The notes under the pieces are model-generated. The model did no database searches. It was not told the DNA's origin and saw only the letters and a list, made by a program, of their open reading frames with translations. A stretch of 64,000 nt of DNA, from positions 3,596,001 through 3,660,000 of the forward strand of contig OX637797.1 of assembly GCA_951802425.1 (NCBI GenBank), read 5' to 3'. This document shows, piece by piece, positions 7,846-52,418 of the stretch. Position numbers and translations under genes: made by a program. This stretch comes from Clavaria fumosa (Eukaryota > Basidiomycota > Agaricomycetes > Agaricales > Clavariaceae). Positions within the stretch are counted from its first letter, which is position 1. Each line of letters starts with the position of its first letter.

Positions 7846-8324
7846 CTTTTGTGGTCTCCTCTACACTACCCTACACCCCTCTTTGGAGCAAAGAATCAGA
7901 TCTTAACAGAGTGCAAGGCAAGGTTATGCAAGTCATGTCCTTGTCTCTGCCTTCATGTTACACTGTCCTCCAAAAGACACATTCTGAGCTATCTTCCTGA
8001 GAACTTGGCCTAACTTCACCAAACTTTGAACATGTTGTCATGCATACATTTTCAGCTATTAGACAACAGGAATATGTGATTTGACATAAAGGGCTGTCTG
8101 GGGAGAGATTTTAAGAACTTTGGGAAAATGGACATAGGGAATCTGTAGTTCTGCACCAAATATTATGGGCTTTTGCATGGTTGTATTAGATGTCATAAGA
8201 TGTAGTCTGATGGCTGGAATTTGCAATCTGACAAATGGTCATGCTCCCAGGCCAATAACACCCTAATTCCTAGTAATGGATTCCAGGGAGGTGGCAGAGA
8301 TGGTGGGTGTGTTGTTAAACTAAT
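7846..8324. other. Unassigned spacer
   Basis: AT-richer sequence without the CTCCGA words, ORFs or repeats I can identify. It may be older sequence into which element A inserted. Confidence 0.5.
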
Positions 8325-9049: not shown

Positions 9050-9089
9050 GTATATTCGAACTTCAAACCTCGTATATACAAACTCAACA

Positions 9090-10262
9090 ATGCCTACTAC
9101 ACGATCCGGTGCTTGACTTCCACCTCCTGTTGCCGATGATGTCGACATTCCAGAACCGGCCAACAATACTCTGACTCCAAGTGTGTCCAGACCCCCAGAC
9201 CATGATGAAGAGTCAGACCCCTCAGTCACTGATGATGACGACGAGCTAAATGAACCTCTGACACCTCGAGCTGAACGCGAACTAACTCCGGTGCGTCTCC
9301 TTCAGAAGATCATTGATGCCAACAAGCGCCTGGAGACGGTTAAACCATGCAACCCCAATACCTTTGATGGCTCGGACCCTAAGAAGTTGAAAAGCTTCTT
9401 GGTCCAATGTCAATTGAACTTCCTTGATCACCCTAGAGTGTTCAAGTCTGATTCTCATAAGGTATGCTATGTCCTTTCCTTTCTCCGGGGCTACACCCTG
9501 GAATGGTTCGAACCGAGGATCCTGGATGGCGAAGGCCATCCGGTCCTTTCGAACTATAAGATGTTCGTTGCTCAACTTACAGAGAACTTTGGTCCATACG
9601 ACGTGATCTGCGAGGCGGAGTTCGAACTCGAGCACCTCCAGATGCGCGAGGACCAAAAGTTGACGAAATACACCATTTCGTTCAACAGATTCGTGTCCAT
9701 TGTCCATTGGGACGAATATGCCTTGCAGTGGCAGTTCTACAAAGGACTTGCCAGCCGCATCAAGGACGAACTGGCCCGCGTTAACTGCACGGACATGCTC
9801 CGCGGACTCTGCGAGCAAGCCAGTGTGATCGATGGCCGTTATTGGGCTCAGCAGGAGATCTCTCGGGACTCCGTTAAGACTCTGACGCTTAACAACACCA
9901 TTAAAAAGGAGACTTTGGATAGTTCCAAGTCCCCGAACACTTCTGGCACTAATACCAAGTCCGAGAAACCATCGGAAAAGCGTCTGGTGAACTCCGGTTT
10001 GACTTCCGGGAACTCCATTCCAAAGGCCACTGAGGGCTCCGCTGACTCTGGTAGCTCCAGTGACACAAAGAAGGCTCATCTGGGTCAGGATGGAAAACTG
10101 ACTCCAGAGGAACACCAACGGTGTTTCAATAATAATCTGTGCCTATTCTGTGGAATAGCAGGCCACAAAGCCAATGAGTGTCGTAAGTGGACCTTGCAGG
10201 CCAGTGCCAGCGCCGCACGAATCACCTCCAATGGAGATGACTTCATGCCAAAAAAAGATTGA
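9090..10262 (+). pseudogene. Gag of Ty3 chromovirus A (one early TGA)
   Basis: Gag forms the virus-like particle that packages element RNA. I take ATG 9090 as the start: the frame continues into the obvious Gag but is broken by TGA at 9114-9116, probably a decayed CGA (Arg). The Asp/Glu-rich N-terminus (DEESDPSVTDDDDEL) is followed by the retrotransposon Gag core (about 9330-9840: YVLSFLRGYTLEWFEP, FNRFVSIVHWDEYALQW). A zinc knuckle CLFCGIAGHKANEC lies at about 10141-10182, seven codons short of a seven-A run. Gag stops at 10260-10262 with pol overlapping in the -1 frame. Confidence 0.85.
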
Positions 10263-10299
10263 GCAGCCCAGAGAGCACAGTACGACTCTCCAGCTGCTC
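10250..10299 (+). promoter_or_regulatory. Candidate -1 ribosomal frameshift site of element A
   Basis: In the gag frame the sequence reads A_AAA_AAA (10250-10256), a classical slippery heptamer, one codon before the gag TGA. After a 4-nt gap a stem-loop can form: GAGCAGC (10261-10267) with GCTGCTC (10293-10299), then GAGAG (10271-10275) with CTCTC (10286-10290). Pol is open in exactly the -1 frame. The spacer is slightly short of the usual 5-9 nt. Confidence 0.65.
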
Positions 10300-13200: not shown

Positions 13201-14076
13201 TCCCATTTTTTCCGCTCATTGGGTAAAGTCCTGGACATGACTTTACACTTCACCTCCGGATATCATCCAGAGGGCGACGGACAGAGGGAGCGGACTAACC
13301 AGACGTTGGAACAGTACCTCCATTGTTACTGCAATTACCAGCAAGACAACTGGTCGCAGCTCCTGCCCCTAGCGGAGTTTGCCTACAACAATGCTCCGAG
13401 CACCACCACTGGGGTTTCTCCATTCTTTGCAAACAAGGGCTATCACCCAAATATGTCAGTATTCCCCAAATGTGAAGTAACTTTGATCCATGCCCGAGAA
13501 CTCACTGTAGACTTGGATCAGCTGCACCAAGAACTCCATAACCAAATCGCTGAAGCGCAGAGTCGCTATCAGGGTCCAGCGGACAACCATCGGACTCCAG
13601 CACTGGAGTTTAAGGTCAGAAACTGAGTCTATGTTAAGGCGAAGTTTTTCCATACGACCAGACCCTCCAAAAAACTCTCCAACAAGTTCCTCGGACCTTT
13701 CGAAATCATCGGAGAGGCCGGTTTGCACTCCTTCGTACTCTGACTCCCTGACGCCATGCAAGCCATCCACCCTGTCTTCCACATTTCCATGCTGGAGCCA
13801 GTCACTCCAAATACAATTCCGAATTGTACCATCTCCCCGCCTCCTCCAGTAGAGATTGACGGAGACCTAGAGCACGAAATCTCCGAAGTGCTCGACTCCA
13901 AGATCAACAAATGCCGCACCTGCAAACTCCTATACCTGGTGCAGTGGTCTGGATACGAAGGAACCGATGAGGAAACATCCTGGCTCCCTGCTACTGAACT
14001 TGTTCATGCCTCCGAGACCGTTTCGGATTTCCACCAAGCTTATCTGAACAAGCCTGGACCTCTCAATACCCTCTAG
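10256..14076 (+). pseudogene. Pol of Ty3 chromovirus A: protease, RT, RNase H, integrase, chromodomain (decayed)
   Basis: Order of domains: aspartic protease ([12 protein letters not shown], about 10400), RT (about 11230-11800), RNase H (VETDASDYAVAAIL, about 12085; KELLTIFEAF), integrase with HHCC remnant and catalytic D/D/E (SMDFIKQLP, TSDHSSEF, RTNQTLEQYL), GPF region, and a C-terminal chromodomain (EVLDSKIN..LLYLVQWSGYEG, about 13880-14000). Stop TAG is at 14074. Defects: a frame change near 11440, TGA codons at 11467, 11530, 12871, 13624 and 13741, and an RT active site YFND instead of YxDD (11647-11658). All stops are TGA. This copy cannot make a working polyprotein. Confidence 0.9.
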
Positions 14077-14775
14077 ACCTTTCTCTGTTCACTCCGATAC
14101 CCTGAAATTTCTCTTATGCTTTTATTTACATACATTTTCCATTCTATACAACTCCATCTCTTTTCTACATTCACTCCAATACCCCGAAATTTCTCTTATG
14201 CTTCTACTTATGTACATTTTCTGTTCTATACAACTCTGTCTCTTTTCTCTGTCTTCTCCAAAAAAACAAAAAAACAAAAAATCTGTATTTCCGTCTCTCC
14301 ATCTCTCTCTGTTCCTTTCTCCGAAAACTCCGAAAACTCTGAAAAATCTCCTTTCTTCTTATTTCTTTTCTCCGAAAACTCCAAACTTTTTTTTTCTTTC
14401 TCCCAAGTCCAACTCCGAATCTCTCTTTGTCTTCTCCGTCTTGTCTTACTTTATTTTCCTTTCACTCCACTTACTTTTCACTCAAGTTCAAAGATAAAAA
14501 AACAATAAATTTATGAAAAGAAAACAATATAAAAGAAACAATAAATACAATGTAGATAATTTTTTAAATTCTTTTTAGGCGGAGGGGGGCAAGCTGGGTG
14601 ATGCTTGTAAAACTCCTTCGGGCTCCTTAAGCCCAGACTCCGCTCCAACTTCTCCCTCCTCCGCCTCTTTCTCTGCCTCCGCACCCTTCTCCACCACTTT
14701 CTCCGCCTCTGCTTCCTTCTCTGCTCCCGCCACCTCCACCACCATCTTCTCCGCCACCCCCTTCAGCACACCCAC
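14077..14775. other. 3' untranslated part of element A, truncated
   Basis: Contains an 82-bp tandem duplication (about 14090-14253), T-rich runs, then a purine tract GGCGGAGGGGGG (14579-14590) like the one at 1865 in D1. CTCCGCC words continue to about 14770, after which element-like composition stops. No 3' LTR follows, so the 3' end was lost. On the minus strand 14575-14775 is an open Glu/Ala-rich frame (AEKEAEAEKVVEKGAEAEKE), possibly a remnant of an antisense gene, but it may just be word-repeat translation. Confidence 0.55.
14090..14253 (+). repeat. 82-bp tandem duplication
   Basis: CACTCC(G/A)ATACC(C)TGAAATTTCTCTTATGCTT starts at 14090 and again at 14172. The two units differ mainly by transitions. 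Confidence 0.8.
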
Positions 14776-19983: not shown

Positions 19984-21479
19984 TGTCAGGACCCATTCAT
20001 TTTTCCTTTACCCAAGCCGACTCCACCAACATCTATGGCCCTCCCGACGACCCTCTACCACCTCGCGTACCCCTCTACCCACTTCCGAAACCTGCTATCT
20101 CCTTCCAGAAACCTCTCCAACCTCCCCCACGCTCACACGATACTTGCGACCACCATGCTGTACTCGCGACGCTTCCTACTACTTCACCCTACACGCATAC
20201 TTCACCCAGACCCACCAATCCTACGCGTGACACACCAATACACGTCTACTTCCACCAGCACGTGACTTGCCGCATGGCACCCCCAGCGCTACCACTACCA
20301 GCACCAATACATTACCAGCGTTATGACTGTTACTTGTGTTACCAGCGTTACCAGCGTTACCCACGTGACTACCCGCCCATAGGTCACCTGCATCACTAGT
20401 GTCACCCACGTGATTGCTCTTATGACCTCGCAACCTTAACACTCAAATGCGCCACCAACGGTCAGCTGTATGTACACTTCAAATATGTGTCCCTTCTTCT
20501 CCTCAGTCGTCTATAATTACGTTACTTCTGATCCAGGAATCCCTCCATAGTTATAGCGACGTATCTACTTATTTAACTAGGTCGCAACCTGTGATAGGTC
20601 ATCTTTGCGACCTTACCTATGCATACCTAACCCCTCGCGACCTTAGTAGAACACGCGCCTAGTCACTTTATGACTAAACATACCCCGTACTACCATAGTC
20701 TTGTCGCCTGGTGACCTCTGTACTTTCCCTTTTCCGTTATACTCTCTGTATGCACGTATATAAGTCTCGCATGTACTTCTCATACTGTAGACTTGATATT
20801 GACGCACATTGGTTTAAGCTTGAGGCTAGTACACCCTTTGAGCTTGGAACCATCACGATTGATAGGTCTTGTCTCTCTTGGTGACCACAAGATTGCCAAG
20901 ACATACTCTACTCTGTCCTAACTCACCCTCTGCGCTCCTACAATTCGCGCGATCTAAGTATTCTCTATTATTCGTCTTGGTACTGATCTTGGAACCCTAC
21001 AGGTTCACCTGTCGGTTGGCAAAGTCATCGCCTTTACCGACACATTTCTCAACACCGTCGCGACCACCGCGACCCTTCCAACATTGTCTATTTCTTTCAC
21101 CTCGTCTTTTTCCTTCTCTACGCTTCGTCAGTTGACCTCGCGACCTTCTCAGCGTTGTCACTTTCTCTCACCTCATCTATTCCTTTCTTCACACTTTGTC
21201 GGTCGACTTTGCGACCCTCTCAGCGTCACCCATTTCCCCCCTCTTCATCAATTACCTCCTTTACGCTTAGTTTACTGACTTCACGACCTTCCCAACGACG
21301 TCTTCCTCCTCTATACTTGTCTTTCTTTGCTCTTACATCTTCTCAGACGTCTTCGCGACCTTCCGGGACTGAGCATTCTCGACTGTGCTCAACAGTTGAT
21401 TGGTCTTAGCGGGTTTCCAGCACAGGTCACCAACAAGTCGATCTCCGGCACTACTATCGAGACGGGACAGGCCCTAACA
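19984..21479 (+). repeat. 5' LTR of B1
   Basis: 1496 bp, TGTCAGG..CCTAACA. TATATAAG lies at about 20757-20764, with a conserved downstream block (ATTGATGCACATTGGTTTAAG-like) and many CGCGACC words toward the 3' end. Confidence 0.95.
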
Positions 21480-21533: not shown

Positions 21534-23531
21534 ATGTCTTCCAGTCACACTCCTCCCCAACCAACCACTCATCACTTCCAGACACGTACAGGTAGCTGCA
21601 CGATCACTCCAATGATCTTGGAGACTACTCGCGAGCTGCCTACCACCATTCAAGAATGACCCATGTCCGTCATTCAATCACAGCCCGAAGAACCCGTCCA
21701 AATCGCACCTAGCCACGCCTCGTCACCATGAGAAGAGGCTGAATCGCTTGTGGAACAGCTCGGCTACCCATGCTTCGACTGCCCTCACCATTGTACCTAT
21801 CAAATTCTCAACAACACTCGCCGCCAATACGAAGCGGGAACCCTTGACGAAGAATTAGCATACCTCGTAGAGACCACAAACCTCTATGAGCCTTTGGTAC
21901 GATTGACAGACGGATTCCGTGCTAATCCACAGAACTGGTTATACGAGAGTCAGCGTCAGTATCCAGGGACTACCGACCGCGGAGTTCCGACTCCTCCTGA
22001 CCTGGATACCCCCTCACGACCTCCAAGACAGGTTCAACCCACCAGAGGACCCCGGGATATGGCCCCACTTTTCCAGGTCGTGGCTCAATCTCTTCAAAAT
22101 TTCGCGAATCCTGCCATGCCTGATGAGCGACCAGCCATTGTCTCCAGGATCCCAAGGTACACCACCCCTCGCAGTAGCTGGCCTACGTGGATGCAGCCAG
22201 CCACTACTCCGAGTAGGGTGCTCCCTCATGACCCTATAGGGACCGAAGCAACGCTTCAACCTGCCCCTTGCCTCGAGATTCCGGTCAAGCCCTTCCACAT
22301 TCCACAACCGGAAGCGCGACCAGTACCCCAGATGGAGACGCAGCCAGCATCTCGCCCTCTGTCACAGACTGAAGCCCCGCAGGTCCCTCCAGTCCCCCCT
22401 ATGCCCCCACACCCCACCGCCGTGCTTCGAGATGAGGCACCTGGAACCCACCATCACCACTACTATTACTAGGCCCCTCCCTCCGAAGGACCATCGGCCC
22501 GAGACGCCTTCGCTCGAGAATCCAAGCTTGACACCAGGTGTCCCGAACCATTCAATGGTTGTGACCAATGCAAGTGGAAACCTTTCGTCACGGAATGCCT
22601 CATGACTTTCTTCGCCAAGCCTGTAACCTTCCAAGGAGATCATGAGAGGGTTACTTTCGCCACCTCTTACCTCACAGACACTGCGCAGAGCCACTACACC
22701 TCCCTCCTTCAATTCAATGCCGAACACCTGGCTCTACATTCCTGGGAAGGGTTCATCCGTGAGTTTGGAGGGATGTTTGGAGTGGTCAACACACAGATTG
22801 AAGCTGACCAGAACCTTCACTTGTTGCAGATGGGCAAAAACGAACAGTTTTCGAACCACATCATCCATTTCGAGTCCTTCGCTTTCGAATCCAACTGGAA
22901 TTCGGCCGCCTTGCAATCAGAGCTCTACTGCTCGATGTCCACGCGTATTAAAGAGGTCATGAAAGTCATTCCGCAACCTACAACGTATCAGGAACTTTGC
23001 GATTTAGCCATGCAGATTGACCAGAGACACTGGGAATATGAGAGTGAGACTCGCCAAACTCAATTCCGCGCTAACCCTCCTGCTCCCCGTCCCCCTGTTC
23101 AACAAGGTGGAAATCGCCCCTTGGCTCAACAAGGCGGAAATCGCAACTACCAGACGACGTCGCGACCTTATCCAGCTGCTGGCAATAATCCTACAATGCC
23201 CTAACCAGCCGCAGGGAATCCCGCGACTTCACTGCGACCCGCTAATCCACCCCATCAGCCGAATCCAAATCTGCCCTACGTCCCCCTCAGCGATGAGGAA
23301 CGAGAACGTCGTCGTCAGGGAAATCTTTGTTTGAGATGTGGAAAGCCGGGACATTACAGCGTTGCATGCCCCGATCGACGATTAGCCGGACAAGCCATCT
23401 TCACGCTAGAGGAAGGAGAGGAAGAGATCCAGGAAGAGTACGAAGTTGAGGAAGAGGTAGAAGAGGATGTGGATGACCCGCATGAAGAGTTAAACGAGGA
23501 AGCGACTCAGGAGCTTCCGGGGGAACTCTGA
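21534..23531 (+). pseudogene. Gag of B1 (four premature stops)
   Basis: Starts at ATG 21534 (MSSSHTPPQPTTHHFQ), as in B2. A variable Pro-rich region is followed by the Gag core (about 22520-23050: FQGDHERVTFATSYLTDTAQ, LHSWEGFIREFGGMFGVVN). A zinc knuckle CMRC/CLRC-GKPGHYSVAC follows (about 23328-23370), then a strongly acidic tail (EEGEEEIQEEYEVEEEVEED). Premature stops are TGA 21657, TGA 21729, TAG 22470 and TAA 23202; at the first two the B2 copy reads CGA. Gag ends at TGA 23529, overlapping pol in the -1 frame. Confidence 0.9.
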
Positions 23532-23536
23532 GTCGC
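23489..23536 (+). promoter_or_regulatory. Candidate -1 ribosomal frameshift signal of B1
   Basis: G_TTA_AAC (23489-23495) sits in the gag frame right where the pol frame opens. A 6-nt spacer (GAGGAA) precedes a stem-loop 23502-23536: GCGACTCA pairs with TGAGTCGC, then GAG/CTC and TTCC/GGAA with single-base bulges, and a GGG loop. Frame, spacing and structure agree. From memory the same heptamer is the arterivirus (equine arteritis virus) slippery site. In B2 the stem is GTGACTCA/TGAGTCAC, so pairing is kept. Confidence 0.7.
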
Positions 23537-26500
23537 GACGATCCAACCCCCATACTCGCGCGGGCCGCAACTAGTTCCTCTTCCCCTCAATTTCCTCGTG
23601 ACCTTTCTAATACTCCCATTGCTTCCCAGTCTTCCCAATCCTTCCTCATAAAGACACAAATACCAGATTTCAGCTCGATTCCCTTAAATACTCTTGTTGA
23701 TTGCAGCGCATCAATGAATTTCATCGATTTCACCCTCACGAACTCCCATCCAAACCTCTTAATGCCACTTCTGCAACCTCTACCACTTCAATACTTCGAC
23801 GGAAGTTCCTCCAGTTCCAATATAACCCACTACGTCCATGCTAGTACGAAATTCCCCGATGATACTATCCAATCCATTAAGTTCCTCATCACTAAAACTC
23901 ATCCTCTCACTCCTGTGGTTCTAGGGCTCGATTGGTTGCAAACCTGGAACCCTAGGATCGATTGGACCAACCTCACTTTCAGTTTCAGACAGACAGCCCG
24001 CTCCGCGACTATCCCTCTCACTCTTCTGGACGCGAAACCCCCGAGTAAACCTTCCCCTGACCTCGCGAACTCGATACTGAAACCCTCTAAACCCCCACGA
24101 GTTCAATTGGTCAAGGCTACCACGCTTCGTCGCTTGGAGCAACAAGGAGAATTTATAGGTCTCCTATATTTCCAACCCACGAACAACCCCCATGACAACA
24201 AATCCATACTCGCAAGTTCCGCAACCACTCAACCCCCTCCAAAACCCGAAGAAACAGTCCCGCACGAGTATCACGACTTCCTGGATGTCTTTTCTGAAGA
24301 TCTAGCCTGGGAACTACCTCCGCACCGCGACTACGACCACCGAATCGAACTTGAAGAAGGTGAAACACCTCCTCATGGGAAGCTATATAACATGTCAGAA
24401 GTGGAGTTAAAAACGTTGAAAGATTATTTGGATGACATGTTGGATAAGGGCTTCATTCGGCTGTCGAAATCCCCCGCAGGTGCACCGGTACTCTTCGCGA
24501 AGAAGAAAGATGGAGGCCTTCACCTCTGTGTCAATTATCAAGGTCTCAACAAGATTACCTGCAAAAATCGTTACCCTATCCCCCAAATTGAGACCCTTGT
24601 CAACCAATTGCGCTTGGCCAAAATCTACTCGAAGATCGACCTCCGTGTTGGGTATAACAACATGAGGATAGCTGAAGGAGACGAGTGGAAAACTGCGTTC
24701 TGCACTCGCTACGGTGCGTTCGAATATCTTGTCATGCCGTTTGGACTCACGAATGCACCCGCGACCTTTCAGCACCTCATGAACGATATCTTCCACGATC
24801 TGGTTGATGTCAACGTAGTAGTCTACCTCGACGACATCTTAATCTACTTGGACAACCTCGAACAGCATTGCAACCACGTCCGAGAGGTCCTACAACGTCT
24901 ATGCAAGGAAGACTTACATGCGCGACCCGAGAAGTGTGATTTCCACACCACGACGGTCAAATACCTTGGAGTTATAGTGTCCCCCGATGGAATTGCCATG
25001 GATCCTTCAAAAATACAGGCCATTCTAAGTTGGCCCGTACCCACGAAGATCTGCGACCTTCAGAGCTTTCTAGGCTTTGCTAATTTCTATTGAAGATTCA
25101 TAGATAACTATTCCGGCATCGTTATTCCACTAACGCAACTCCTCCGCAAGGACATGCCTTGGAAGTGGAGCCCACGATGCCAAGAAGTCTTCGATATCCT
25201 CAAACAAGCCTTTACCGAAGCTCCCGTCCTCTGGCACTACGACCCCGACCACCCCATTACCCTCGAATGCGACGCTTCCGACTACGCCATAGTGGCCATT
25301 CTCTCCCAAACCAATCCCGCGACTAACGAGCTACGTCCCATTGCTTTCCATGCACATACAATGATCGCTGCAGAGCTCAACTACGACATTTACAACAAAG
25401 AGCTCCTCATGATACATGATGCATTCAAGCAATGGAGAGCGTACCTCAAAGGCGTGTGATACCAAATTCAGGTCTTTTCAGACCACAACAACCTACGATA
25501 TTTCACCACCACGAAGCAACTCAGTCGCCGACAAGCCCGCTGGGCAGAGTATCTTTCCAGTTTCGATTATATTATTCATTATTGAGCAGGAAAGTTAGGC
25601 GCGAAGCCAGATGCCCTTATGCGACGACCCGACGTCTACCCGAAGAAGTCCAACCAACCCACGACTAATGCGCAAAACAACAAGGTCACGATACCACCGG
25701 AACTACTTCAAGCAACCATTATCCTCAACGAAGAAGCCCTGATTTTGCGAATTCGACATGCCCCTCGCGACTCCTACTTCTCCAAGAAATCACAGGGCGC
25801 TTCACAAGGTCGTGACAAGGCGTTCTCGCTCTCGCCCGACGGCTCACTACTACTTCATAATGGTAAAATATATGTCCCCGATCACAACTCCCTCCGATTC
25901 GATATCTTATGCTCCAATCACGACCACAAACTACAAGGACATCCAGGTATAAGAAAGACAACCCAGCTAATAAATAGGTTGTTTTTCTGGCCAGGACTCC
26001 GAAAGGACGTAACCGTCTATGTCCGTGGTTGTCACACCTGTGCAAGGGCAAAACCCGTCCGGCACAAACCCTATGGACTCCTCAAACCCTTGCCCATAGG
26101 CGAGCGACCTTGGTCTTCAATTTCGATGGACCATATCGAAGCTCTCCCCCTCTCCGCGACCTTTGACTCGATTCTCGTTGTTGTCTGCCAACTTACAAAA
26201 CAAGCAATCTTTATCTCCACCAACACTACCGACACTGCGAAAGAGTTAGCTCAACATTTCGTCACCCACGTCTTCTCAAAGCATGGGCTACCCGTGGACA
26301 TAGTGTCGGATAGAGGAAGATTATTCGTTTCTAAGTTTTGGTCTTCGTTATGTCAGGCTTTGGATATTACTTCAAATCTTTCCACAGCCTATCATCCTGA
26401 GACCGATGGACAAACCGAATGAGTCAACCAGATCTTGGAGCAATATATACGAATCTATACGAACTACCAACAGGACGACTGGACCCACCAACTTCCACTC

Positions 26501-27190
26501 GCCAAGTTTGTATACAACAACACCCCCCACAGCGTGACTGGTGTCTCCCCGTTCTTCGCGAACAAGGGATACCACCCAAGACTCACGATTTCCCTCGAAG
26601 GGATACCCACGCATGAAGCCCACATGGTCGCGACCGATCTCAAGATGCTCCATTAGCACTTACGAGATCAACTCAAGGTTGCGAACGAGGCCTACTCGCG
26701 CTTTGCGGACAGGAAGAGAGAGGTTACACCGGACTGGAAAGAAGGAACGAAGGTGTGGTTAGACTTGTGGAATGTGAAAACGAAGAGACCGATGAAGAAA
26801 TTGGACTCGAAACGAGCCGGACCTTTCCCCATACTCGCGAAAGTTTTGACTCATGCATATTGTCTCCAGTTACCGAAATCGATGCGAGAAATTCATGACG
26901 TCTTCCATGTTTCGTTACTCGAAAAGGTCTATGATGATGCTTTCCCCCAGTGGCAACAGCAACCCCCGCCCCCTATCAAGGTCAATGGCAAACAACATTA
27001 CGAAGTCGCCGACATACTAGATTCTCGAAGGAGGGGTAGGAAAGTGCTCTACCTTGTACATTGGGAAGGTTACGGACCCGAGGACGACACCTGGGAACCA
27101 ATAGAGTCACTTTCCAGATCGAAGGAACTCCTCCAGGACTTCCATGCGACCTACCCGGAAAAACCTCGCACAACTCACGCAACTCAATAA
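23490..27190 (+). pseudogene. Pol of B1: protease, RT, RNase H, integrase, chromodomain (several stops)
   Basis: Protease LVDCSASMNFID (about 23695; B2 has DCGA), RT with intact YLDD (24824-24835), RNase H (LECDASDYAIVAIL, about 25260), integrase HHCC (HDHKLQGHPGIRKTTQ.. CHTCARAK) and D/D/E (SMDHIEALP, VSDRGRLFV, and E in NQILEQYI), GPFPILAK, then chromodomain (YEVADILDSRRRGRKVLYLV, about 26998-27120). Stop TAA 27188. Premature stops are TGA 25091, 25457, 25583 (shared with B2) and 26420, and TAG 26654. A small insertion after 25457 shifts the frame. The glycine of the protease DxGA motif is Ser. This copy is inactive. Confidence 0.9.
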
Positions 27191-27288: not shown

Positions 27289-29397
27289 CTACTGGTCGCG
27301 AGCTTTTTCCTTCCCCTTTCGCAACCCTTCTACTCCTTCCCCGCCTTCCACACTTGCGACTTTTTCCTTTTCCCCCTTCTCCTCCTCTCCAGCCCCAGGA
27401 ACCCTCAACTCAAAACCCCAATTGTCCACCCTTGGAATATCCAACAGCTCCCTCCTCACACGATGTTGCTCCTGCTCTGCCCATTGCTCTACCCACGATG
27501 GGAGTTCTTCTGGCGACTTCATCAAAAGGTCTTCATAGGTGAAGAAGACCGTCTCGAGGCCTCGCCGTCCTCGAAAGCGAGCCTCGCGGAGCTCACCGAC
27601 CATACTCGCACATTGGTCGCGCAACTCTAAAAACTAATCTTCAGTTTGTTGCTAAAAACAAAACCCGCGAGGACTTACCTTTTTCCCGCTCCCTCGACAC
27701 CTTCAACTCCTTTTCCATCCTCTCTACAGTCGCGAACAAACCTACAAAACAAAGATTAGTTTGTGTTATACTCGCAACTATGGAACTTACTTCGTTCCGA
27801 TTCCTCGGCCTCCTCCAGCTCGACCTTATGGTCTAGATAAACACAAATAACAGATTAGTCCACCTTCATACCCGCGACCACTAAAACTTACTGTTCTCCG
27901 ACTCTTCGGTCTCTTCCAATCTTCGCCGGACGTCCCCCAACTCCACCCTCCAACCTAAACCAATAAGAAGATTAATTCGCGATCTCACGGAGTAGAATGA
28001 TGACTGACCTTCCGCCTCCTTTTTCATCGCTGCAATCACCCTGCTCACCTCCTCGAACTCCTTGCGCATCCCCTCTGCCCCCATTAACAATCCTATAGAC
28101 GCGAATGAGTCAACTTCATACTCGCGACTATTTCACTTACCCTCTTTCTCCTTCTGCAACTTCTCCAACTCCCGGCGCGCATTTCTCAACTCGACTTCTT
28201 GGTCTGAATCACACGGAAGTCAATCTACAAGGCATCAATTCGAGTAAAAACTTACCTTGCCACTCCCCATGGAGTGCCTCAAACTCCTTTTCCGCTCCCT
28301 CAGCCTGCGTCATCAATTCCGCGACTTCCGCGACCTCCTTGCCTTTGCCAATAAAAGTCGTGAGCTCAGTATGAAACTACGGGAACCAGGACAAACTGAT
28401 ATTCACCTTTCTTGCCCCACCGTAACGCCTCCAACTCACGCTTAGCTGCCGCCAATTCCACCTCCAATTCCGTCTCCCGATGCGACTTGTATACCCATGC
28501 TATCTTCTTCGTGGGTTCTGCGAGTTGCTGATGGAGCGTTGCAAGCTCCCGTTCCAGATCCATCCTGGGGACCAAGGTCCCCGCAACCTTTCCTTCTCCC
28601 TCCACCAACCCCTTCGATGACGACGGCTTCGCCACTTGCCTCCTTGTTGACGGACCAGGCGTCGGCGACCACGACCTTGTCCTTGCTCGCTTTCCGCGTA
28701 CCGCTCGCGTTGGGGTCACCGGAATCGTAATAGTGGGGAGTTTGGCTCCCACTCGACTCGCGACTGTTGGGGTTGCTGTCGCAGCTGATCCTGGTGTCTC
28801 TGCCCGCCGCAGAGCCTCATCGATTTGCACGTCGCTCCATCCGAATTCGGCCTTGACGCGCCATCGATGAAATTCCTGGACCCAGGAACACTTCCCATGG
28901 TCCTCTGCGCACTGGCGACACTTGCCGGCAGTGCTGCACACACACTGTCGGCCCTTTGCGATGCAGTTATCACAATCCTGGAATGTAACAATCAGAAGAA
29001 ATGAATGGGAATGAGAACTACTATTATGCACCTCTCGTTCCCTTTCGTTCCACTCTTTGTTCTCCATCACTGACCCTATTTTCTTCCAAGCTTTTAGGAA
29101 GTCCGCGGGCGACAGGTCAGCTTCGCCCGCAACGTTCTCCACCACCCCGCTTGACTCTGCGACGTCACTCGCAGTCTTATTCGTACTCGCAACGTTGCCT
29201 CGCATCTTGCGGTGGCCCGCAGCTTCACAAAGACGTGCGCATCGCTCTTGCTCAGCCTTTTGATGGGCCAGCGCGTCTTCTAGGATCCCCAGATTGAGGC
29301 TGGGTTCCGTTTCGTCGTATATGCGCATTTCGCGCATGACCTCGTTCTCGTCCTTGTTGGTTTCAGTTTCGTGTTGTTTGATGAAAGCAGAGACCAT
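27289..29397 (-). CDS. Antisense multi-exon gene of B1: cysteine-cluster plus coiled-coil protein
   Basis: Runs opposite to gag-pol from ATG 29397, about 115 bp inside the 3' LTR, to TAG 27289, about 100 bp past the pol stop. I infer nine exons and eight introns of about 45-70 nt. Clear donors (GTAAGT, GTGAAT, GTCAGT) lie at about 28398, 28254, 28136, 28010, 27890, 27795 and 27678, and a GTGCAT..CCAG intron at 28978-29031. The N-terminal segment includes AEFLKAWKKIGSV-like residues. A cluster CDNC-x6-CVC-x5-CRQC-x6-C follows, then a basic Ser/Thr/Pro stretch (GKRARTRSWSPTP). A long heptad coiled coil leads to a conserved end (FFTYEDLLMKSPEELPSWVE). The family is unknown to me; it may be a nucleic-acid-binding regulator. 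The promoter must lie in or near the 3' LTR on the opposite strand. Confidence 0.75.
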
Positions 29398-30805
29398 GGT
29401 GGTTGGACTTAGAGAAAAATTTCGGGTGTCGTGACCTGATCAACAAACATTGCGCTGACTAATCATCACATGATCTCCACTCTCACAGGGCTCGAGGCTT
29501 GAAGGGGGGGTAATGTCAGGACCCATTCATTTTTCCTTTACCCAAGCCGACTCCACCAACATCTATGGCCCTCCCGACAACCCTCTACCACCTCGCGTAC
29601 CCCTCTACCCACTTCCGAAACCCACTATCTCCTTCTGGAAACCTCTCCAACCTCCCCCGCGCTCACACGATACTCGCGACCACCATGCTGTACTCGCGAC
29701 ACTTCCTACTACTTCACCCTACGCGCATACTTCACCCGGACCCACCAATCCTACGTGCGACACACCGATACGCGTCTACTTCCACCAGCATGTGACTTGC
29801 CGCGCGGCACCCCCGGCGCTACCACTACCAGCACCAATACGTTACCAGCATTATGACCGTTACTTGCGTTACCAGTGTTACCCACGTGACTACCCGCTGT
29901 AGTAGGCTGTACAGGTGTTGGCTGCAAATAGATGTTCACAGCCAGGTTCTTCAGGGGGTCTTATTACACAATGGGTACACTAGACAGAACCTTGGAGGAT
30001 GTAGAGGTTGAGTGCAAGAGGTTCAGAGAGTGAAAATATACGTTATCCGGAGTATCCGGTATCGGATCCGATAGAGTCCGATGTTTGGATCGAAGGTTCG
30101 AGGGGCCGGCGATGACAAAGGCCAGCAGATCAATAGGTACAACGAAGGGTGAGCTTGCTAAAAGTCGCAGCACGATGTGGGCGTTCAAAAAGCTGGATTT
30201 CCGTATAGTCCGAAGTGTGCTTAAGTACAGTTCTGTAAGTACAGCAAATTGGAATGTATGGAAATGTCCGGAAAACGTATGGAACAGCGCCATGTCGTGT
30301 GAAGGGTTATATGGAGGAGTTATATCACAAGGGAGTTGAGTAGCTCGGAGGAATGAAATGTCCGATGAGTAGCACATGTCCGGACTGCTCGTAAACTGAA
30401 GGAAAGTGGGGCTGGTACAGCAAAGGGGTACTAGGAACAATGGGCAAAGTACTGCAAAGGGTTTGAAACATTCAAATGATTGAATGGTTGAAAGGGATCA
30501 CAATATGAAATTTACAGCATGTTATATGAAATAAAGGAATGGGAATGGAATAGTGAGTATGTCAAGCGCTGACCATGCTAGAGTGATGAAATAGAAAGGC
30601 GTGGGCGGTGTGTGAGACCTGCGGGCTGTGATCGTCACAGGGGATTGAAGACCGGGGAATCTGATATCGGATATATATCGGATGCTATCGGATGTTATCG
30701 GATGGTGTCGGATGGTTATCAGATCGTATCGCGCATAATTTCCTTGGATCGCAAAATATCCGGATAGTCGGTATCTGTCATATTTCTGTGTTTAGACCAC
30801 ATATA

Positions 30806-31784
30806 CAGTGACTCACAAAACTGTTCGAATGTTTTGCACTTTTGAAATGATTCACTTATAACACTCCAAGTAAAATGGCTAAATTTCTGAGGATATTTGT
30901 GAGGATATCCATGCCTCTTGGCTACAACTTTGCTCTACATTATAAAGTACCATTTCCATTTTTGGTAATGTTATGACATCATTTTCTTTGTCATGTCATT
31001 CGAACAGTTTTGTTGCTGACAATTTTATCAGTCAAATGTGTAAGTATTAGTGTTCAATATAGCCTCTTTTTGCCTTCAGCACATCCCCAATCCCTCTAGG
31101 CATGCTTTCAATTAATCCCTGACAAAAATAGAAGCAAGTATCTTATTCCACTCCTCTTCCACCCTTCCCACAACTGTAACACTCCACCTGGTGCCTTTTC
31201 ATACTCTCCAAGCCTCCTGCTAAGATGAATCCACAGATGATCAATGGGATTGAGGTCTGGAGATTGAGTAGGCCATATGAGGGTCTTAAAATCAGGGTCT
31301 TTTAGCCAATTTTTGGCCTGGTGGCTATGGTGCTTGAGTTCCCCATCATGATCATCTGTGGATTCATCTTGGCAGGAGGCTTGGAAAGTATGAAAAGGCA
31401 CCAGGTGGAGTGTTACAGTTGTGGGAAGGGTGGAAGAGGGGTGGAATAAGATACTTGCTTCTATTTTGTCAGGGATTGATTAAAAGCATGCCTAGAGGGA
31501 TTGGGGATGTGCTGAAGGCAAAAGAGGCCATATTGAACACTAATACTTACACATTTGACTGATAAAATTGTCAGCAACAAAACTGTTCGAATGACATGAC
31601 AAAGAAAATGATGTCATAACATTACCAAAAATGGAAATGGTACTTTATAATGTAGAGCAAAGTTGTAGCCAAAAGGCATGGATATCCTCACAAATATCCT
31701 CAAAAATTTAGCCATTTTACTTGGAGTGTTATAAGTGAATCATTTCAAAAATGCAAAACATTCGAACAGTTTTGTGAGTCACTG
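30806..31784. mobile_element. Hairpin Tc1/mariner element (inverted 3' halves)
   Basis: Ends CAGTGACTCACAAAACTGTTCGAA and its inverse, flanked by TA dinucleotides (30804-30805 and 31785-31786). About 435 bp at each side are near-perfect inverted copies (about 30806-31241 and 31350-31784), with a loop of about 110 bp. Both arms contain the same C-terminal transposase coding region in opposite directions, so the unit is one long palindrome. Confidence 0.9.
31108..31401 (-). pseudogene. Tc1/mariner transposase, C-terminal fragment
   Basis: The minus strand contains WPTQSPDLNPIDHLW, the hallmark of Tc1-family DDE transposases, preceded by HDGELKHHSHQAKNWLKD. The spacing between the second catalytic Asp and the last acidic residue is 34 residues, as in DD34 elements, with Asp where Glu is usual. 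The N-terminal DNA-binding domain and the first Asp are missing. The right arm holds the same C-terminus on the plus strand. Not functional as a transposase. Confidence 0.85.
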
Positions 31785-33420
31785 TAATCCTTACACCACC
31801 CGTAGGTCACCTGCATCACTAGCGTCACCCACGTGATCGCTCTTATGACCTCGCGACCTTAACACTCAAACACACCACCAACGGTCAGCTGTATGTACAC
31901 TTCAAATATGCGTCCCTTCTTCTCCTCAGTCGTCTATAATTATGTTACTTCTGATCCAGGAATCCCTCCATAGTTATAGCAACGTATCTACTTATTTAAC
32001 TAGGTCGCGACCCATGATAGGTCATCTTCGCGACCTTACCTATGCATACCTAACCCCTCGCAACCTTAGTAGAACACGCGCCTAGTCACTTTATGACTAA
32101 ACATACCCTGTACTACCATAGTCTTGTCGCCTGGTGACCTCTGTACTTTCCCTTTTCCGTTATACTCTCTGTACACACGTATATAAGTCTCGCATGTACT
32201 TCTCGTACTGTAGACTTGATATTGATGCACATTGGTTTAAGCTTGAGGCTAGTACGCCCTTTGAGCTTGGAACCATCACGATTGATAGGTCTTGTCTCTC
32301 TTGGTGACCACAAGATCGCCAAGACACACTCTACTCTGTCCTAACTCACCCTCTGCACTCCTACAATTCGCGCGATCTAAGTATTCTCTATTATTCGTCT
32401 TGGTACTGATCTTGGAACCCTACAGGTTCACCCGTCAGTTGGCAAAGTCATCGCCTTTACTGACACATTTCTCAACACTGTCACGACCACCGCGACCCTT
32501 CCAACATTGCCTATTTCTTTCACCTTGTCTTTTTCCTTCTCTACACTTCGTCGGTCGACCTCGCGACCTTCTCAGCATTGTCACTTTCTCTCACCTCATC
32601 TATTCCTTTCTTCATGCTTCGTCAGTCGACTTTGCGACCCTCTCAGCATCACCCATTTCCCCCCTCTTCATCAATTACCTCCTTTACGCTTAGTTTACCG
32701 ACTTCACGACCTTCCCAACGATGTCTTCCTCCTCTATACTTGTCTTTCTTCGCTCTTACATCTTCTCAGATGTCTTCACAACCTTCTGGGACTGAGCATT
32801 CTCGACTGTGCTCAACAGTTGATTGGTCTTAGCGAGTTTCCAGCACAGGTCACCAACAAGTCAATCTCCGGCACTACTATCGAGACAGGACAGGCCCTAA
32901 CAATCCCCTCTCAGCATTTGACAACTCCTGGGCCCTGGCATTGATGATCTCCTTCTTGCACTGCTCCACAACACGCTGGAGGGTCCACCTCTGTCATTTG
33001 CTGAACTGAAGGCCTTGGTTGCCATCATCTTCTGAACCAGAAGACTCCTCCCCTCCACTGACAGCCCTGTGGTTATTGTGGAGCCAATTGCAAATTTTCT
33101 ACGAACAGACAAACATCAAATCAACTCAGGAGACACATAAAATGCATAGGTTATGGTGCTAAGATCCTCTGGGACACATTTGTTGTCCTGCTCAGCTGAA
33201 TCCTTGATTTTCGCTTTGATTTGCTTGACAATTTCGAGGCAGTCTTTTGAGTTTGCCTGTCTGTAGGCTACAAGACTTTCTGTGAGTATTTTGGTATACT
33301 CTGGGGTTGTCCACCATGTCATTTTCTTTGCTAGCCTAACTGATAAAGCAGTGGCATTGTTGGGAAGCAAGAATTGGTGTGTCACGTGAGAAAATAACTT
33401 GGCTCACGTGAGTCAATTGT

Positions 33421-36286: not shown

Positions 36287-39200
36287 CATGCCAATCACTA
36301 AACGAAAAGAACATGCCCAGGAGGTTGAATTTGTTTCAATTTACAATAAACGACTGCAGAAATCCTTTTTGAAGTCTCGAAATGTCTACAAACAACCTGC
36401 TCAACCATACAACGTTCTACATAGCAAGCTTTGGTCTGGGACCTGCTCCAATGATTCCCTACTCCCCCAAACACCCCATAGCGAGGCCAAACAGACTCTG
36501 CCCTTTTGTTATGACCCCATCCGCTTGCATAAGCACGATCCCTGCTCCAGACTCTGAGTTCCATACCAGCCCTGATCCGCTCTGCCATAACTCCGTGCAC
36601 TCCGCTCTGCACCTTCATCGGACTTTACTCTGCCAGCCTTCAGACCATTCGGACTTCATTCTAGAACCTTCTCCCTCCATCCCCTCATTCTGTTTACCAT
36701 TGAGAGGATACCCTTGACCCATGGGAGTCGCTTTTTTGTTGTTGCTTCTTTGTTCCATGAAAATTGCACAGGCACATGAGGTGAAACTCTCCTAGTAATT
36801 TGATATGTACATTGTTTCACATTACTCCTATACTCTGTCCTTGCAGTATAAGTTTCCACCTGTATCTCCCTGCTCCTCAGTTTGAATATTAACGTCTCTT
36901 GATCCTAAAAACACCTCTGAGCTTTCGTCCTCATCGTCCTCAATGTTCTCCATGTCATCCGACCAACTCCAACCCACTCCGACGGACTCCGATCACTTCG
37001 GAGTTTGACTTACATTCTGATTCTCTCTTAGGTATTGTTCTTGTTTGATAAATAGGGACAAGTATATACGTGGTGGCACAACACATACGTTGAGGCCGCA
37101 GTCCCATAAGTCTCCTTCCTCTTGTTTACTTCTCTGTTTCACTGATATCGGACTCTGACCGGACTCCGATAGAACATCTCTGCTCCGCTCCGCTAACCCC
37201 TTCGCCGCTAACCTTGTTAGGACCGTGACACCTTTACATTTAATGCAGATGGTGACCCTGAGTGCATACTGGATTCTGATGCCCAATGGATTTCACATAA
37301 GAAAAAGCAAGGAAAGGTGAGGACTCCAAGTTGTTCTCTGTATGCTGAAGTATCTGAAAATGTACACATTCAGACTCAGAATGAATTCCTTGAGGATTGG
37401 CTTCCTTTAAGAACAGCTTACCTGAGGGAAATCTTGGAATTAGAAGCTCCACCCCCTTCCAAAATTTGTCAGGTCTGCAATCAGAACAACTTCAAGTTTC
37501 AATGCCATGATTGTTTCTATTGGCCTGCAACTTGCTCCTCATGCTGCGCCAAATCTCACATCAATATCCCATTCCATTCCATTGACGTTTGGAATGGAGT
37601 TTGTTTCCTGCCATCTGATCTCCTACATGTTGGACTGGTGATTCACTTAGGGCATCAAGGCTCACCATGTCCAGAATTCAAAGAGGAAGGGTACAGGGAG
37701 AAGGATCAATGGGAGCAAGATACCAGAAATGAACCTAATTTGGATAGGCCAGGTGCAAGTCTGCTTCTAGTTGTACACTCAAATGGAGTGTGCCGACAGA
37801 GCATCTATTACTGCCAATGCTCAAATGCTCCTTCCCACCATATACAGCTGCTTCAACACTGTCTGTTTCCTGCCAGCTATATGAAACCTCAAACAGTGTT
37901 CACATTTGAAGTCCTTGGTCACTTCCATATTGAGGCTATGGAGTGTAAAACCTCAGCAGGCGCCTTTTACTCCAAACTAAAGAGATTTACCTCTAATGCT
38001 TTCCCAGACACTGTACCAGTTAGTATCCTCCTCTCCTTTTCCCTCCATTTGTATTGACAAGCTGCTGGCATTAGGATTGATACTGTGAACTAATGAGAGT
38101 ATCTTGTCAATGGCGAGACTTGACAAATAGAAAATGATTTGGTTTTGGGCACAACTTGGATAGGAAAACAGGAAATGGGGACCTAGCACTGTTTTGTCCT
38201 GCTTGCCCTCAACCTGGCATTAATCTTCCTAACAACTGGCAAAGTCAACCAGATCAGTAAGTCTTGTTTTCATTGAATGCATGCAAACCCTGATAAAGAA
38301 ATGCCAGATGGCTTTTCTGCAGATCCCTGGTTGTTGATGGAAATTTCTCAGCAGAACACTTGAAAATGCGAAGAGCAGAGAAAGATGTTAGGTTAGCAAA
38401 TGGAGAGGCATATATTGTAGAGGAGGTGAATTATCAACATCACCTCTCTGAGGGCTTAGAGATTCAAGATGTAGGTGTCTAACTTGGACTGGTCACCTGA
38501 GATTCACTCCTACAACAGAAATCAAAATGCTCAAATCACAGGGCTATAAGCCAGTCAAATGCTCACTCAAGTCACCTGGAAGCCATGGGAATAGGGGCAT
38601 GTGCCTGCTCACGGCATGGGTGTTTCGTGCCACATTCTGTGGTTGATTTCCAGAAGGGCGAGCAGTGAGCTGAAAATGTCTGTATATTTGAATTTGGTTG
38701 CAAATACTTGTTGCTTTTTCTTCCAGTCACATCAACATTGACTATGCAATTTGCCAAGCTATCAAATATAGGACAGAAGGGATGACAGAGACTTTGGTCA
38801 TCTATGATATCTGTTGTCAGTGGATTCACAATTTCGACAAGAGGGTCCAGGGGAGCCAGTATCTGTCTGTGCACCCTTCAACAACAATCATACCTGCAGT
38901 GGGTAAATTTCACTTGGGGGCACACATTCGTTCCTGTTTCCCACTGTTCTCCTTGAACTTTGTTCATGGTGCTGGCCAACAAGATGGAGAGATTTTGGAG
39001 ACTCTGTGGTCAAACCTGAACAAGGTCTCCAGCAGCATACGGGCCATGAGCAAGGCACATCAGCACGAAATATTAGATGACTACATGTGAGATTCAAACT
39101 GGAAGAAAACAGTGGGTATTGGTGGGTATCAAAATTTTCTAAGCAAATTTGGGATAACTGAATATGCAATCTAGTGAAGGCCCTCCTGGCAAAGTACAAT

Positions 39201-50377: not shown

Positions 50378-52418
50378 CTACTGGTCGCGAGCTTTTTCCT
50401 TCCCCTTTCGCGACCCTCCTGCTCCTTCCCCACCTTCCACACTTGCGACTTCTTCTTCCTCTCCCCCCTTATCCTCCTTTCCAACCATGGGACCCTTCAA
50501 CTCCACACCCCACTGGTCCACCCTCAGGAGATCCAATAGTTCCCTCTGCACATGACGTTGCTCCTGCTCCGCCCATTTCTCCACCCATGGCAGGAGCTCT
50601 TGAGGCGGCTTCAGCAAGAGGTCTTCGTAGGCAAAGAAGACCGTTTCGAGGCCTTGTTGTCCTCAAAATCGAGCCTCACGGAGCTCGCCGACCATCATCA
50701 CACACCGACTGTGCAATTCTAGAAACAAACCATCAGCCCATTGTCAAGAATATGAAATCTGCGATGACTTACCTCATTCCTGCTCCCTCGACACTAATAA
50801 CTCCCCCTGCATCTTCCCTACAGTCACAAACAATCCTATAAAAAAGACACGAATTAGTTCGTTTTATACTCGCGACTGTAGAACTTACTGTGTTCCTCCT
50901 CCTCCGCCTCCACGAGCCTATGCTGAAGCTCCTCCAGTTCAATCCTTTGATCTAGATAAACAGGAGAATCAGTTAGAACGTCGTGAGGTGAAATTACGAC
51001 TTACTGGCCCATTCCTTTTTCACTGTTGCGATTACCATCTTTACTTCCTCAAATCCTTCGCAAGTCTTTCCCGTCGACGCCAACCACTCTACGGGCAAAT
51101 TAGCTTATTTCACACTCGCGAGAGTTGACTTACCTTCTTTCTCCTTCTTCAAATCCTTTACTTTGTGACGCGAGTCCTTCAATTTGGTCTCCTGGTCTGA
51201 GGAAACAAGGGAATTACTTTGTGACATGGTAAAACAAGTGAATACTTACCTTCCCAGTCACCCTCAAGCGCCTCGAAATCCCTCTCTACCTCCACTATCC
51301 GTGCCCTCAATTCGTGATCTCCACATCCACCTCCTCCCTCCCTTTCCCTGCCAACATGCAAATTCAGTAAAAACACGAAAAGCCAGGGAGCATTGGACAC
51401 TTACCTTTGTCACCCCTCCACAATGCTACCAACTCACGTTTCGCTACCACCAGCTCTGCATCCAACTCCGTCTCCCGATGCGACTTGTATACCCACGCAA
51501 TCTTCTGCGTGGGTTCCGCGGCTTGCTGACGGAGCGTCGCGAGCTCCCTCTCGAGATCGACCCTTGGGACCAAGATCCCTGCGACCTTCCCTCCCTCCTC
51601 CACCAACTCCCTCGATGACACCGGTTTCACGACTTGCCTTTTTGTTGATGGACTGGGTGTCGGGGACCGCGACCGAGCCCTGGTTCGTTTCCCGCGAGTC
51701 GGCTGGGTAGGAGTCCCCGGGACGGACAGGGTAGCATACCCTGCCCCCACTTGACTTGCGACCTTCGGAGTCGCCACCCCCAGCGTTTCCGACCCTTTGG
51801 CACGCTTCAGCACCTCGTCGACCCACACGTCATCCCAACCGTATTCATTTTTGACGTGCCATCGCCGAAATTCTTGGACCCAGGAACATTTGCCGTGGTC
51901 CTCTGCGCACTGGCGACACTTGCCGGCAGTACTACAGACACACTGCCAGCCCTTTGCGACACAATTGTCGCAGTCCTGTGTTTTAACAATTAGAAGGGAC
52001 GAGTGGAACGAGAAATACTATTATGCACCTCGTGCTCCCTCTCATTCCACTCCTTATTCTCCTTCACTGACCCAATTTTCTTCCAAGCTTTTAGAAATTC
52101 CGCGGGCGACGGGTCAGCCCCGCCCGTGACTTCACCCCTTATTCCACTAGGGCCCGCAACATTTTCTTCCACCCGACTTGGGCCCGCAACGTCGCTCCTC
52201 ATTTCGCTAGAGCCCGCAACCTTGCCCTTCTTCTTTTCACGCCCCACGGTTTCTTCACGAAGACATGCGCATCGCTCTTGCTCAGCCTTTTGGTGGGCCA
52301 ACATCTCGGCCAGCACCTCTTTGTTGCAGCTAGCCTCACCCCTTTCGAACTCCTCATATTCACGCATTTCGTGTTCGAGTTGGGTTCCAGTGCGTTTGAG
52401 GACATTGGAGGAGACCAT
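50378..52418 (-). CDS. Antisense multi-exon gene of B2
   Basis: Counterpart of the B1 antisense gene: ATG 52418 (MVSSNVLKRTGTQLEHEMRE), same cysteine cluster (CDNC..QCVCSTAGKCRQC, about 51890-51970), same basic TRGKRTRARSRSPTPSP stretch, coiled-coil exons, and the same C-terminal end (GSRKGKEKARDQ, stop 50378). The GTGCAT..CAG intron is 53 nt here (51976-52028) versus 54 nt in B1, while flanking protein is conserved, which supports real splicing. Some inner exons (50700-51180) are more decayed, so this copy may be partly broken. Confidence 0.65.

Follow-up and report, generated by a model that had tools for sequence, protein, structure and literature searches.

A spliced antisense gene with a zinc-cluster-like cysteine pattern in a Ty3 chromovirus family of Clavaria fumosa: a candidate element-encoded regulator

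Background

Several plant LTR retrotransposons carry additional open reading frames (ORFs) in antisense orientation between pol and the 3' long terminal repeat (LTR). These frames, designated aORF-3R, are exemplified by gene23 of Grande, RIRE2, ORF4 of Retand and PvRetro13 (PMC7264820). According to the same review, the antisense accessory genes do not clearly resemble other proteins, and no function is known for them. In fungi, the antisense gene brtn of the Boty-like elements was reported by Zhao et al. in 2011, as cited in PMC7264820, PMC8365987 and PMC4227169. Two other systems are relevant by their layout or their logic. The transcript of HBZ, from human T-cell leukaemia virus type 1 (HTLV-1), starts in the 3' LTR (PMC1459196), and the VANC protein of Arabidopsis VANDAL elements goes with a family-specific short motif that is dense in the element, introns included, with many sites in one orientation (PMC5735166). 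The present work concerns AS1, the minus-strand gene (29397 to 27289) located between pol and the 3' LTR of element B1, a Ty3 chromovirus of the basidiomycete Clavaria fumosa. It lies in a stretch of 64,000 nucleotides (assembly GCA_951802425.1, contig OX637797.1, positions 3,596,001 to 3,660,000), which is called the window hereafter and whose coordinates are used below. Sequence comparisons confirm AS1 as a real, spliced, antisense and selected gene of its element family, and its product is a candidate regulator of the element that encodes it.

AS1 lies antisense between pol and the 3' LTR, occurs in most copies and has a conserved sequence. It therefore resembles the plant aORF-3R in position, orientation, presence in most copies and a conservation similar to that of other element proteins (PMC7264820). 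It differs from them by its multiple exons and its zinc-cluster pattern; the words 'intron' and 'zinc' are absent from the text of that review, which thus describes no such form, and the comparison is one of descriptions only. With brtn of Botrytis cinerea, which is carried by a chromodomain element, AS1 shares a fungal host, the antisense orientation and the status of additional gene, again by description only. The resemblance to HBZ is an analogy: both genes are antisense, HBZ is spliced as AS1 is predicted to be, and the regulator layout is predicted for AS1. HBZ is a basic leucine zipper (bZIP) protein and AS1 is of the C6 type, so that homology is not claimed. As for VANC, the common logic is that of an element-encoded protein associated with a family-specific dense motif (PMC5735166), but VANDAL elements are plant DNA transposons, their protein is unrelated to AS1, and TCGCGA, a part of the candidate AS1 motif, is also frequent in coding parts. 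The likeness to HBZ and VANC would be limited to layout and logic, and membership of AS1 in either group is not claimed.

The preliminary description of this locus, made from the sequence alone, considered that no multi-exon antisense gene was known from a fungal element. This statement has to be narrowed, since a fungal antisense Ty3 gene had already been published (Boty brtn); the multi-exon form itself was not encountered in the open-access literature surveyed. No fungal antisense gene of an LTR element with several exons or a Zn2Cys6 cluster was found in this literature, covered mostly at listing level, and the available passages of "LTR Retrotransposons in Fungi" (PMC3248453) contain none of the words 'antisense', 'intron' or 'zinc'. 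Because antisense accessory genes are already known from plants and from Boty, the novelty lies in the multi-exon, zinc-cluster-like form and in its presence in several clades. In the AS1 family, a putative DNA-binding pattern can be recognised, conserved copies are numerous within a single genome, other clades have sister genes, and each clade has a candidate target motif. The family makes the old question of the role of antisense accessory genes directly testable by binding and reporter assays, and is relevant to the ways in which selfish elements control silencing or escape from it. Genome annotations may list genes of this type as host zinc-cluster factors.

Results and discussion

Structure of AS1

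Splicing joins nine exons, from an ATG at 29397 to a TAG ending at 27289 on the minus strand, into one stop-free frame of 558 amino acids:

29032..29397, minus strand: exon 1, residues 1-122, with the ATG at 29397
28978..29031, minus strand: intron 1, phase 0 (introns 2 to 8 are the gaps between the exons below, all in phase 1)
28407..28977, minus strand: exon 2, with the Zn2Cys6-like cysteine cluster, the basic Ser/Pro stretch and the beginning of the coiled coil
28888..28974, minus strand: CX2CX6CX7CX2CX6C cluster
28256..28342, minus strand: exon 3, coiled coil
28141..28203, minus strand: exon 4, coiled coil
28009..28092, minus strand: exon 5, coiled coil
27892..27954, minus strand: exon 6, coiled coil
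27791..27832, minus strand: exon 7, coiled coil
27679..27741, minus strand: exon 8, coiled coil
27289..27626, minus strand: exon 9, encoding the conserved, helical C-terminal region and ending with the stop

The introns measure, from the first to the eighth, 54, 64, 52, 48, 54, 59, 49 and 52 nucleotides, and all eight are bounded by GT and AG; the limits of the gene (27289-29397) had been given exactly in the preliminary description, which counted "about eight" short introns. The proposed lack of overlap with gag-pol coding sequence holds for the coding parts, pol stopping at 27190 and AS1 ending at 27289. Because pol ends before AS1, the possibility that AS1 is the antisense shadow of an overlapping sense frame is ruled out. 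A chance open frame or an artefact is ruled out as well, by the intact spliced frame, the kept splice sites and the low ratio of nonsynonymous to synonymous substitution (dN/dS) reported below. The gene was said to be carried by both full-length B elements of the window. It is indeed present in both, but the copy of element B2 (50378..52418) is not intact, its best spliced alignment containing two in-frame stops and no frameshift.

Splicing and selection among the genomic copies

At least 95 matches to AS1 DNA were counted in the genome (48.8 Mb, 17 contigs), 40 of 196 candidates having been scored. Thirty-four copy regions (L009-L040, B1 and B2) were aligned with a home-made spliced aligner using the B1 protein as guide. 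The intron at residue 122 was recovered in 29 of these regions and that at residue 447 in 31. All eight intron positions of B1 are found in five regions (B1 and L009-L012), and seven of the eight in six more (L013, L026, L030, L031, L032 and L035). Four regions (B1, L009, L018 and L035) have a frame covering the whole protein without stop or frameshift, L018 requiring introns at unusual places; L038 is equally free of stops and frameshifts over a partial span. In a further subfamily (L021-L025, L028, L029, L033, L036, L039, L040 and L044), exon 2 is longer and fewer of the coil introns were recovered. When this subfamily was realigned together with L041 and L042 using a mixed guide, none of the 14 regions was free of both stops and shifts, perhaps in part through a guide that fits their coil poorly.

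The splice signals are kept across subfamilies, with GTAAGT or GTGCGT donors, CTRAY-like branch sites and YAG. In six pairs taken between subfamilies, the intron interiors are 56-69% identical and the third codon positions 58-66%, against 75-84% for positions 1 and 2; in the closer pair WB1-L018, the introns are 69% identical and codon positions 1, 2 and 3 are 88, 87 and 80% identical. The dN/dS (Nei-Gojobori method, 14 chosen copies, protein-guided alignment, sites from exons 1, 2 and 9 only) is 0.16-0.31 between subfamilies, at a dS of 0.35-1.22, and 0.25-0.61 within them. For comparison, the pol pieces of ten copies give 0.07-0.33. Block by block (15 pairs, six copies), pN/pS is lowest in the cysteine block (0.22) and the C-terminal block (0.27), and highest, at about 0.5, in the N-terminus and the coil. 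Introns lying in sense orientation are removed from the genomic RNA of a retrotransposon and lost at the next copy, which is not the case for the introns of a minus-strand gene. The upkeep of the AS1 introns therefore argues for transcription from the minus strand followed by splicing, as we infer to be the case for AS1.

The antisense RNA might matter by itself: the reading frame would be secondary, and convergent transcription would produce double-stranded or silencing RNA. AS1 and pol are indeed convergent, and similar antisense RNAs have been discussed in the case of plant and animal elements (PMC7264820). This explanation is nevertheless highly improbable, since the dN/dS between subfamilies, the conserved splice sites and the invariant cysteines point to a protein, and the coding parts of AS1 and pol do not overlap.

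Linkage of AS1 to the element

The pol end of clade B stands tail to tail with AS1 in 30 of the 32 loci L009-L040, the exceptions (L016 and L017) having cut gene copies. A recognisable LTR lies on the 5' side of AS1 in 27 of these loci; it was not recognised in L015, L034, L035, L036 and L038, three of which are short sequence stretches. The linkage was also surveyed on a genome-wide basis, with 150 pol-end matches scored out of 1630 candidates. Clade B, defined by at least 66% identity to B1, accounts for 93 of them, a figure that differs from the number of elements because fragments are included. Exon 2 or exon 9 of AS1 is found in convergent orientation within 4.5 kb of the pol end in 88 of the 93, both exons in 71 and neither in five. 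Among the 57 matches of other clades, one has AS1, at least 20 of the matches listed have AS2, an antisense gene described below, and 36 have neither listed. Two signs that the preliminary description held against a functional gene, a dN/dS near 1 and absence of the region from intact family members, were looked for and neither was observed, dN/dS being 0.16-0.31 between subfamilies and the gene being present at 88 of 93 clade-B pol-end matches.

The pol end at G000:C3:1005575 belongs to another clade (47% identical) and has an AS1-type cysteine exon in convergent orientation downstream, at C3:1008659. AS1 may have moved between clades in this case, or one element may be nested in another. Four other AS1 copies are very similar to one another: L035, L043 (G000:C4:8524-10617), one on C1 near 5,285,000 and one on C11 near 2,834,000. 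A contig end is less than 10 kb away from two of the four (C1 and C4) and about 150 kb away from one (C2). L035, the copy tested in this respect, has an open spliced frame. L035 and L043 are accompanied by a chromodomain fragment only, with no recognisable LTR on the 5' side of the gene, and copies of this type are possibly host-kept or amplified. In addition, dozens of loci (for example C3:70696, C5:3736268, C8:20430 and C9:3391544) contain a piece of the cysteine exon of 52 residues, with 65-73% identity. Many of these loci are near contig ends, and the stops that they contain are mostly of the same kinds; part of AS1 may have been incorporated into a subtelomeric repeat.

AS1 could also be a captured host gene that hitch-hikes on the element and is kept only through the short time elapsed since capture. 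Its spliced structure is like that of a nuclear gene, and the four very similar copies stand beside a pol fragment only, L035 and L043 having no recognisable LTR in the DNA examined. This is very unlikely, since AS1 is conserved between subfamilies whose dS is near 1 and accompanies pol at 88 of 93 matches, and the family has therefore kept it for long. A limited search identified no host homologue.

The AS1 protein

Six cysteines spaced CX2CX6CX7CX2CX6C are invariant in all 15 exon-2 rows of alignment A1, which consists of 14 copies chosen for being open there and of the database relative P0001; L019, outside this alignment, has lost one of the six. The spacing CX2CX6CXCX5CX2C proposed initially has to be corrected accordingly, as it included a variable cysteine and missed the last one. 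Fungal DNA-binding domains of the Zn(II)2Cys6 type, which bind two zinc ions and DNA of the CGG type, have the spacing CX2CX6CX5-12CX2CX6-8C, and we take that of AS1 to be the spacing of such clusters (PF00172). In a six-frame search of the window with a strict or a broad form of the C6 spacing, only the AS1 genes of B1 and B2 match.

The basic Ser/Pro stretch, the coiled coil and the conserved C-terminus were found as initially described. The basic stretch comes after the cysteine cluster. In residues 263-447, one of 2000 shuffles attains the observed heptad periodicity; the periodicity is weaker in residues 447-530 (15 of 2000). The C-terminal exon, conserved as seen from its low pN/pS, was modelled as three helices with a mean predicted local distance difference test (pLDDT) score of 73, and this model has no significant fold match. 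The succession of a Zn(II)2Cys6-like spacing, a basic stretch and a coiled coil is that of factors such as Gal4 and PPR1; AS1 differs from them by the lack of a significant profile match and by a coil located about 110 residues after the cluster. A Pfam, PDB or fold identity for AS1 was sought, with nothing significant; Pfam DUF7158 matches two of 15 members (best E 0.0019). The Pfam scan of exons 1-2 lists no bZIP, exons 3-9 not having been scanned separately. In a large protein set, P0001 and P0002 are the only AS1 relatives among the candidates scored; such counts say little about the spread of the gene because part of the candidates was scored and fungal proteins are possibly few in the set.

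Antisense genes in other chromovirus clades

The clade of L045, whose pol end is about 40% identical to that of B1, was taken as a control. It carries AS2, a single-exon antisense gene of 345 codons at the same place and in the same orientation as AS1, with the spacing CX2CX6CX10CX2CX6C, a basic part and, judged by eye, coil-like parts. AS2 has 129 matches in the genome, fragments included, and 11 relatives in the protein set among the candidates scored. Five of the six cysteines are invariant in an alignment of 12 rows, the last one being absent only in P0012. Zn_clus is the commonest Pfam match of AS2 (10 of 12 members, best E 0.0035), the first member scoring 14.1 bits, below the Pfam cut-off of 21. 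Element A of the window belongs to this clade, and the last residues of AS2 are all that is left of the gene there (14581-14637).

L048 represents a further clade. Its antisense frame is interrupted by one intron of 47 nucleotides inside the cluster, which reads CX2CX6CX10CX2CX6C once spliced; none of 200 shuffles of the stretch yields any spliced cluster. Its Zn_clus match (E 0.13, 12.8 bits) is below the cut-off, and its likeness to PPR1 (1pyi, E 0.9), the only PDB match, is a weak one. No significant homology was detected between AS2 and the L048 protein (E 0.12). The cysteine alignment of AS1 with AS2 suggests homology without reaching significance. A minus-strand cysteine block in L046 was not counted, being irregular and of a broad pattern that occurs in one of 300 shuffles of the stretch. 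Since the AS1, AS2 and L048 genes all have it, at least three clades share the antisense cysteine plan, although their proteins show no significant homology to one another.

Clade-specific DNA motifs

Six-mers were ranked, both strands merged, against a trinucleotide expectation (1,242-2,012 six-mers per stretch). TCGCGA ranks first in B2, second in L009 and L044, third in B1, L010 and the AS1 part of L043, and fifth in L021. The overlapping GTCGCG is among the top five in all seven clade-B stretches and GGTCGC in six of them; these overlapping words therefore form one clade-B motif, GGTCGCGA. Within the window, 48 of 49 TCGCGA sites are inside B1 or B2. CGGAGT/ACTCCG ranks first in both clade-A stretches, element A and L045. 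The LTRs of clade B contain 5, 2, 8 and 8 TCGCGA sites against dinucleotide-shuffle means of 0.25-0.41, and two LTRs of clade A contain 7 and 8 CGGAGT sites against 0.29-0.39. In the two B LTRs tested, where about one site is expected, CGGAGT does not occur. A dense and family-specific motif, as in the VANC system, where the protein binds its motif and removes silencing, is thus found in clade B (GGTCGCGA) and in clade A (CGGAGT), each chosen after inspection. The motifs of the window and of L045 are biased in strand (7 vs 20, 5 vs 18 and 4 vs 20). A pair of TCGCGA sites 20 bp apart occurs in the LTR beside the AS1 start in B1, L009 and L044; a single site is present in L010 and L016, and none in B2.

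In element A, seven CGGAGT sites lie in a 727-bp LTR stretch. L048 has CCGGAC at exact 20-bp steps (731, 751, 771 and 791), within a part that also occurs as an inverted copy about 850 bp long; this array is perhaps the motif of the third clade.

Uneven divergence

AS1 and the beginning of the LTR are far more variable than gag-pol, whether through exchange or through rapid change. B1 and B2 are 92-93% identical in gag-pol, 64-81% in AS1 pieces and 91% in the 112 bp that separate AS1 from the LTR; in the LTR itself, identity is 71% over the first 320 bp and 87% over the rest. When B1 is compared with L010, L018, L021, L024, L026 and B2, dS is 0.10-0.32 in pol versus 0.14-1.16 in AS1. The AS1-LTR link is imperfect, L021 having a B1-like LTR with a different AS1. 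Joint diversification of a regulator with its target would be expected to give such an uneven divergence. The AS1 copies of L014 and L018 resemble mosaics formed from two subfamilies, their identity to B1 shifting between the coil and C-terminal exons.

A nuclear regulator of its own element?

The best explanation, to which a probability of about one half can be given, is that AS1 is an accessory gene of this chromovirus family and encodes a nuclear regulator binding its own element. AS1 would be transcribed on the minus strand from a promoter in or beside the 3' LTR and then spliced, and its product would be a dimeric nuclear protein. The putative zinc cluster would bind GGTCGCGA, repeated through the element and its LTRs, and this binding would set the transcription or silencing state of the element. 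Action of the protein on element DNA is plausible.

Several observations weigh against this explanation. As regards the protein, Pfam Zn_clus matches one of 15 AS1 members, with an E of 2 that does not reach the Pfam cut-off, and no relevant PDB sequence relative was found. The fold model of the cluster is poor and of low confidence (pLDDT 53-71 over residues 1-40), and gave no Foldseek or VIA match. When the profiles of AS1 and AS2 are aligned with hhalign, the probability on the cluster is 2.2%, which is not significant, and L047, another chromovirus 3' end, has no such antisense gene. As regards the motif, TCGCGA comes tenth, behind another leading word, in the whole 8-kb L043 locus, mostly made of other DNA, and L043 has no strand bias (4 vs 5). 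The excess in the B2 LTR is weak, its two sites being reached by nine of 500 shuffles and those of the other B LTRs by none; the absence of TCGCGA from the clade-A LTR tested is uninformative (0.04 expected). In coding pieces, the excess is clear in one of six tests (L044 pol, 8 vs 1.7), moderate in two (12 and 20 of 2000 shuffles) and absent in three. The link between protein and motif is not direct, and recognition of TCGCGA by AS1 is putative. Lastly, the motifs were picked after inspection and family copies share sites by descent; for this reason the motif evidence is a strong lead and not a proof.

A role in the retrotransposition cycle (nuclear import, the pre-integration complex, or tethering to chromatin jointly with the chromodomain) could replace that of a regulator. 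It agrees with the presence of AS1 beside nearly all scored clade-B pol ends (88 of 93) and with purifying selection, and has been considered for the plant antisense ORFs (PMC7264820). Such a role is somewhat unlikely, the C6 spacing and the clade-specific excess of motifs in LTRs fitting a sequence-specific DNA binder better. If AS1 is a regulator of its own element, it might be a repressor or copy-number brake rather than an activator or anti-silencing factor; HBZ, the spliced antisense product of a 3' LTR, inhibits Tax-dependent transcription (PMC1459196). This special case of the regulator is unlikely as it stands, the sign of the regulation not being readable from sequence. The regulator hypothesis can be tentatively extended: it is possible, with less confidence than for AS1 itself, that in several chromovirus clades of this fungus antisense zinc-cluster coiled-coil proteins each recognise the motif of their own clade in LTRs, introns and body, regulator and sites diversifying together and faster than gag-pol. 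This would amount to self-recognition by retrotransposons, similar to that of VANC and VANDAL but relying on zinc-cluster factors and on antisense genes that are often spliced.

Other features of the window

The remaining features of element B1, with the antisense copies of B2 and element A, are as follows:

19984..21479, plus strand: 5' LTR of B1, starting with TGTCAGGACC; end approximate
21732..23204, plus strand: gag region of B1, two open stretches with a stop between them; Retrotrans_gag
23486..27190, plus strand: pol pieces of B1, with reverse transcriptase, integrase region, SH3_Tf2-1 and chromodomain; interrupted
29501..29510, plus strand: purine run GAAGGGGGGG adjoining the 3' LTR on its inner side; probable polypurine tract, read from the sequence
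29514..32902, plus strand: 3' LTR of B1, beginning with TGTCAGGACC; interrupted by an insertion (29883-31791, about 1.9 kb); end approximate
29674..29699, no strand: two TCGCGA sites, 20 bp apart, upstream of the AS1 start in the 3' LTR of B1
50378..52418, minus strand: AS1 copy of element B2, with two in-frame stops
14581..14637, minus strand: AS2 remnant (C-terminal end) in element A

The modules at the pol end of B1 are SH3_Tf2-1 (PF24626, 3e-18) and the chromodomain (PF00385, 3.8e-15). The insertion in its 3' LTR has 267-nucleotide inverted arms (30804-31070 and 31520-31786) that are 99% identical. Element A (8324-14758) is a chromovirus of another clade with a truncated antisense gene. 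Positions 37221-38057 of the window match the CxC2 cysteine-cluster domain of KDZ transposases (PF18803, 2.4e-24) and therefore probably belong to a KDZ-type element.

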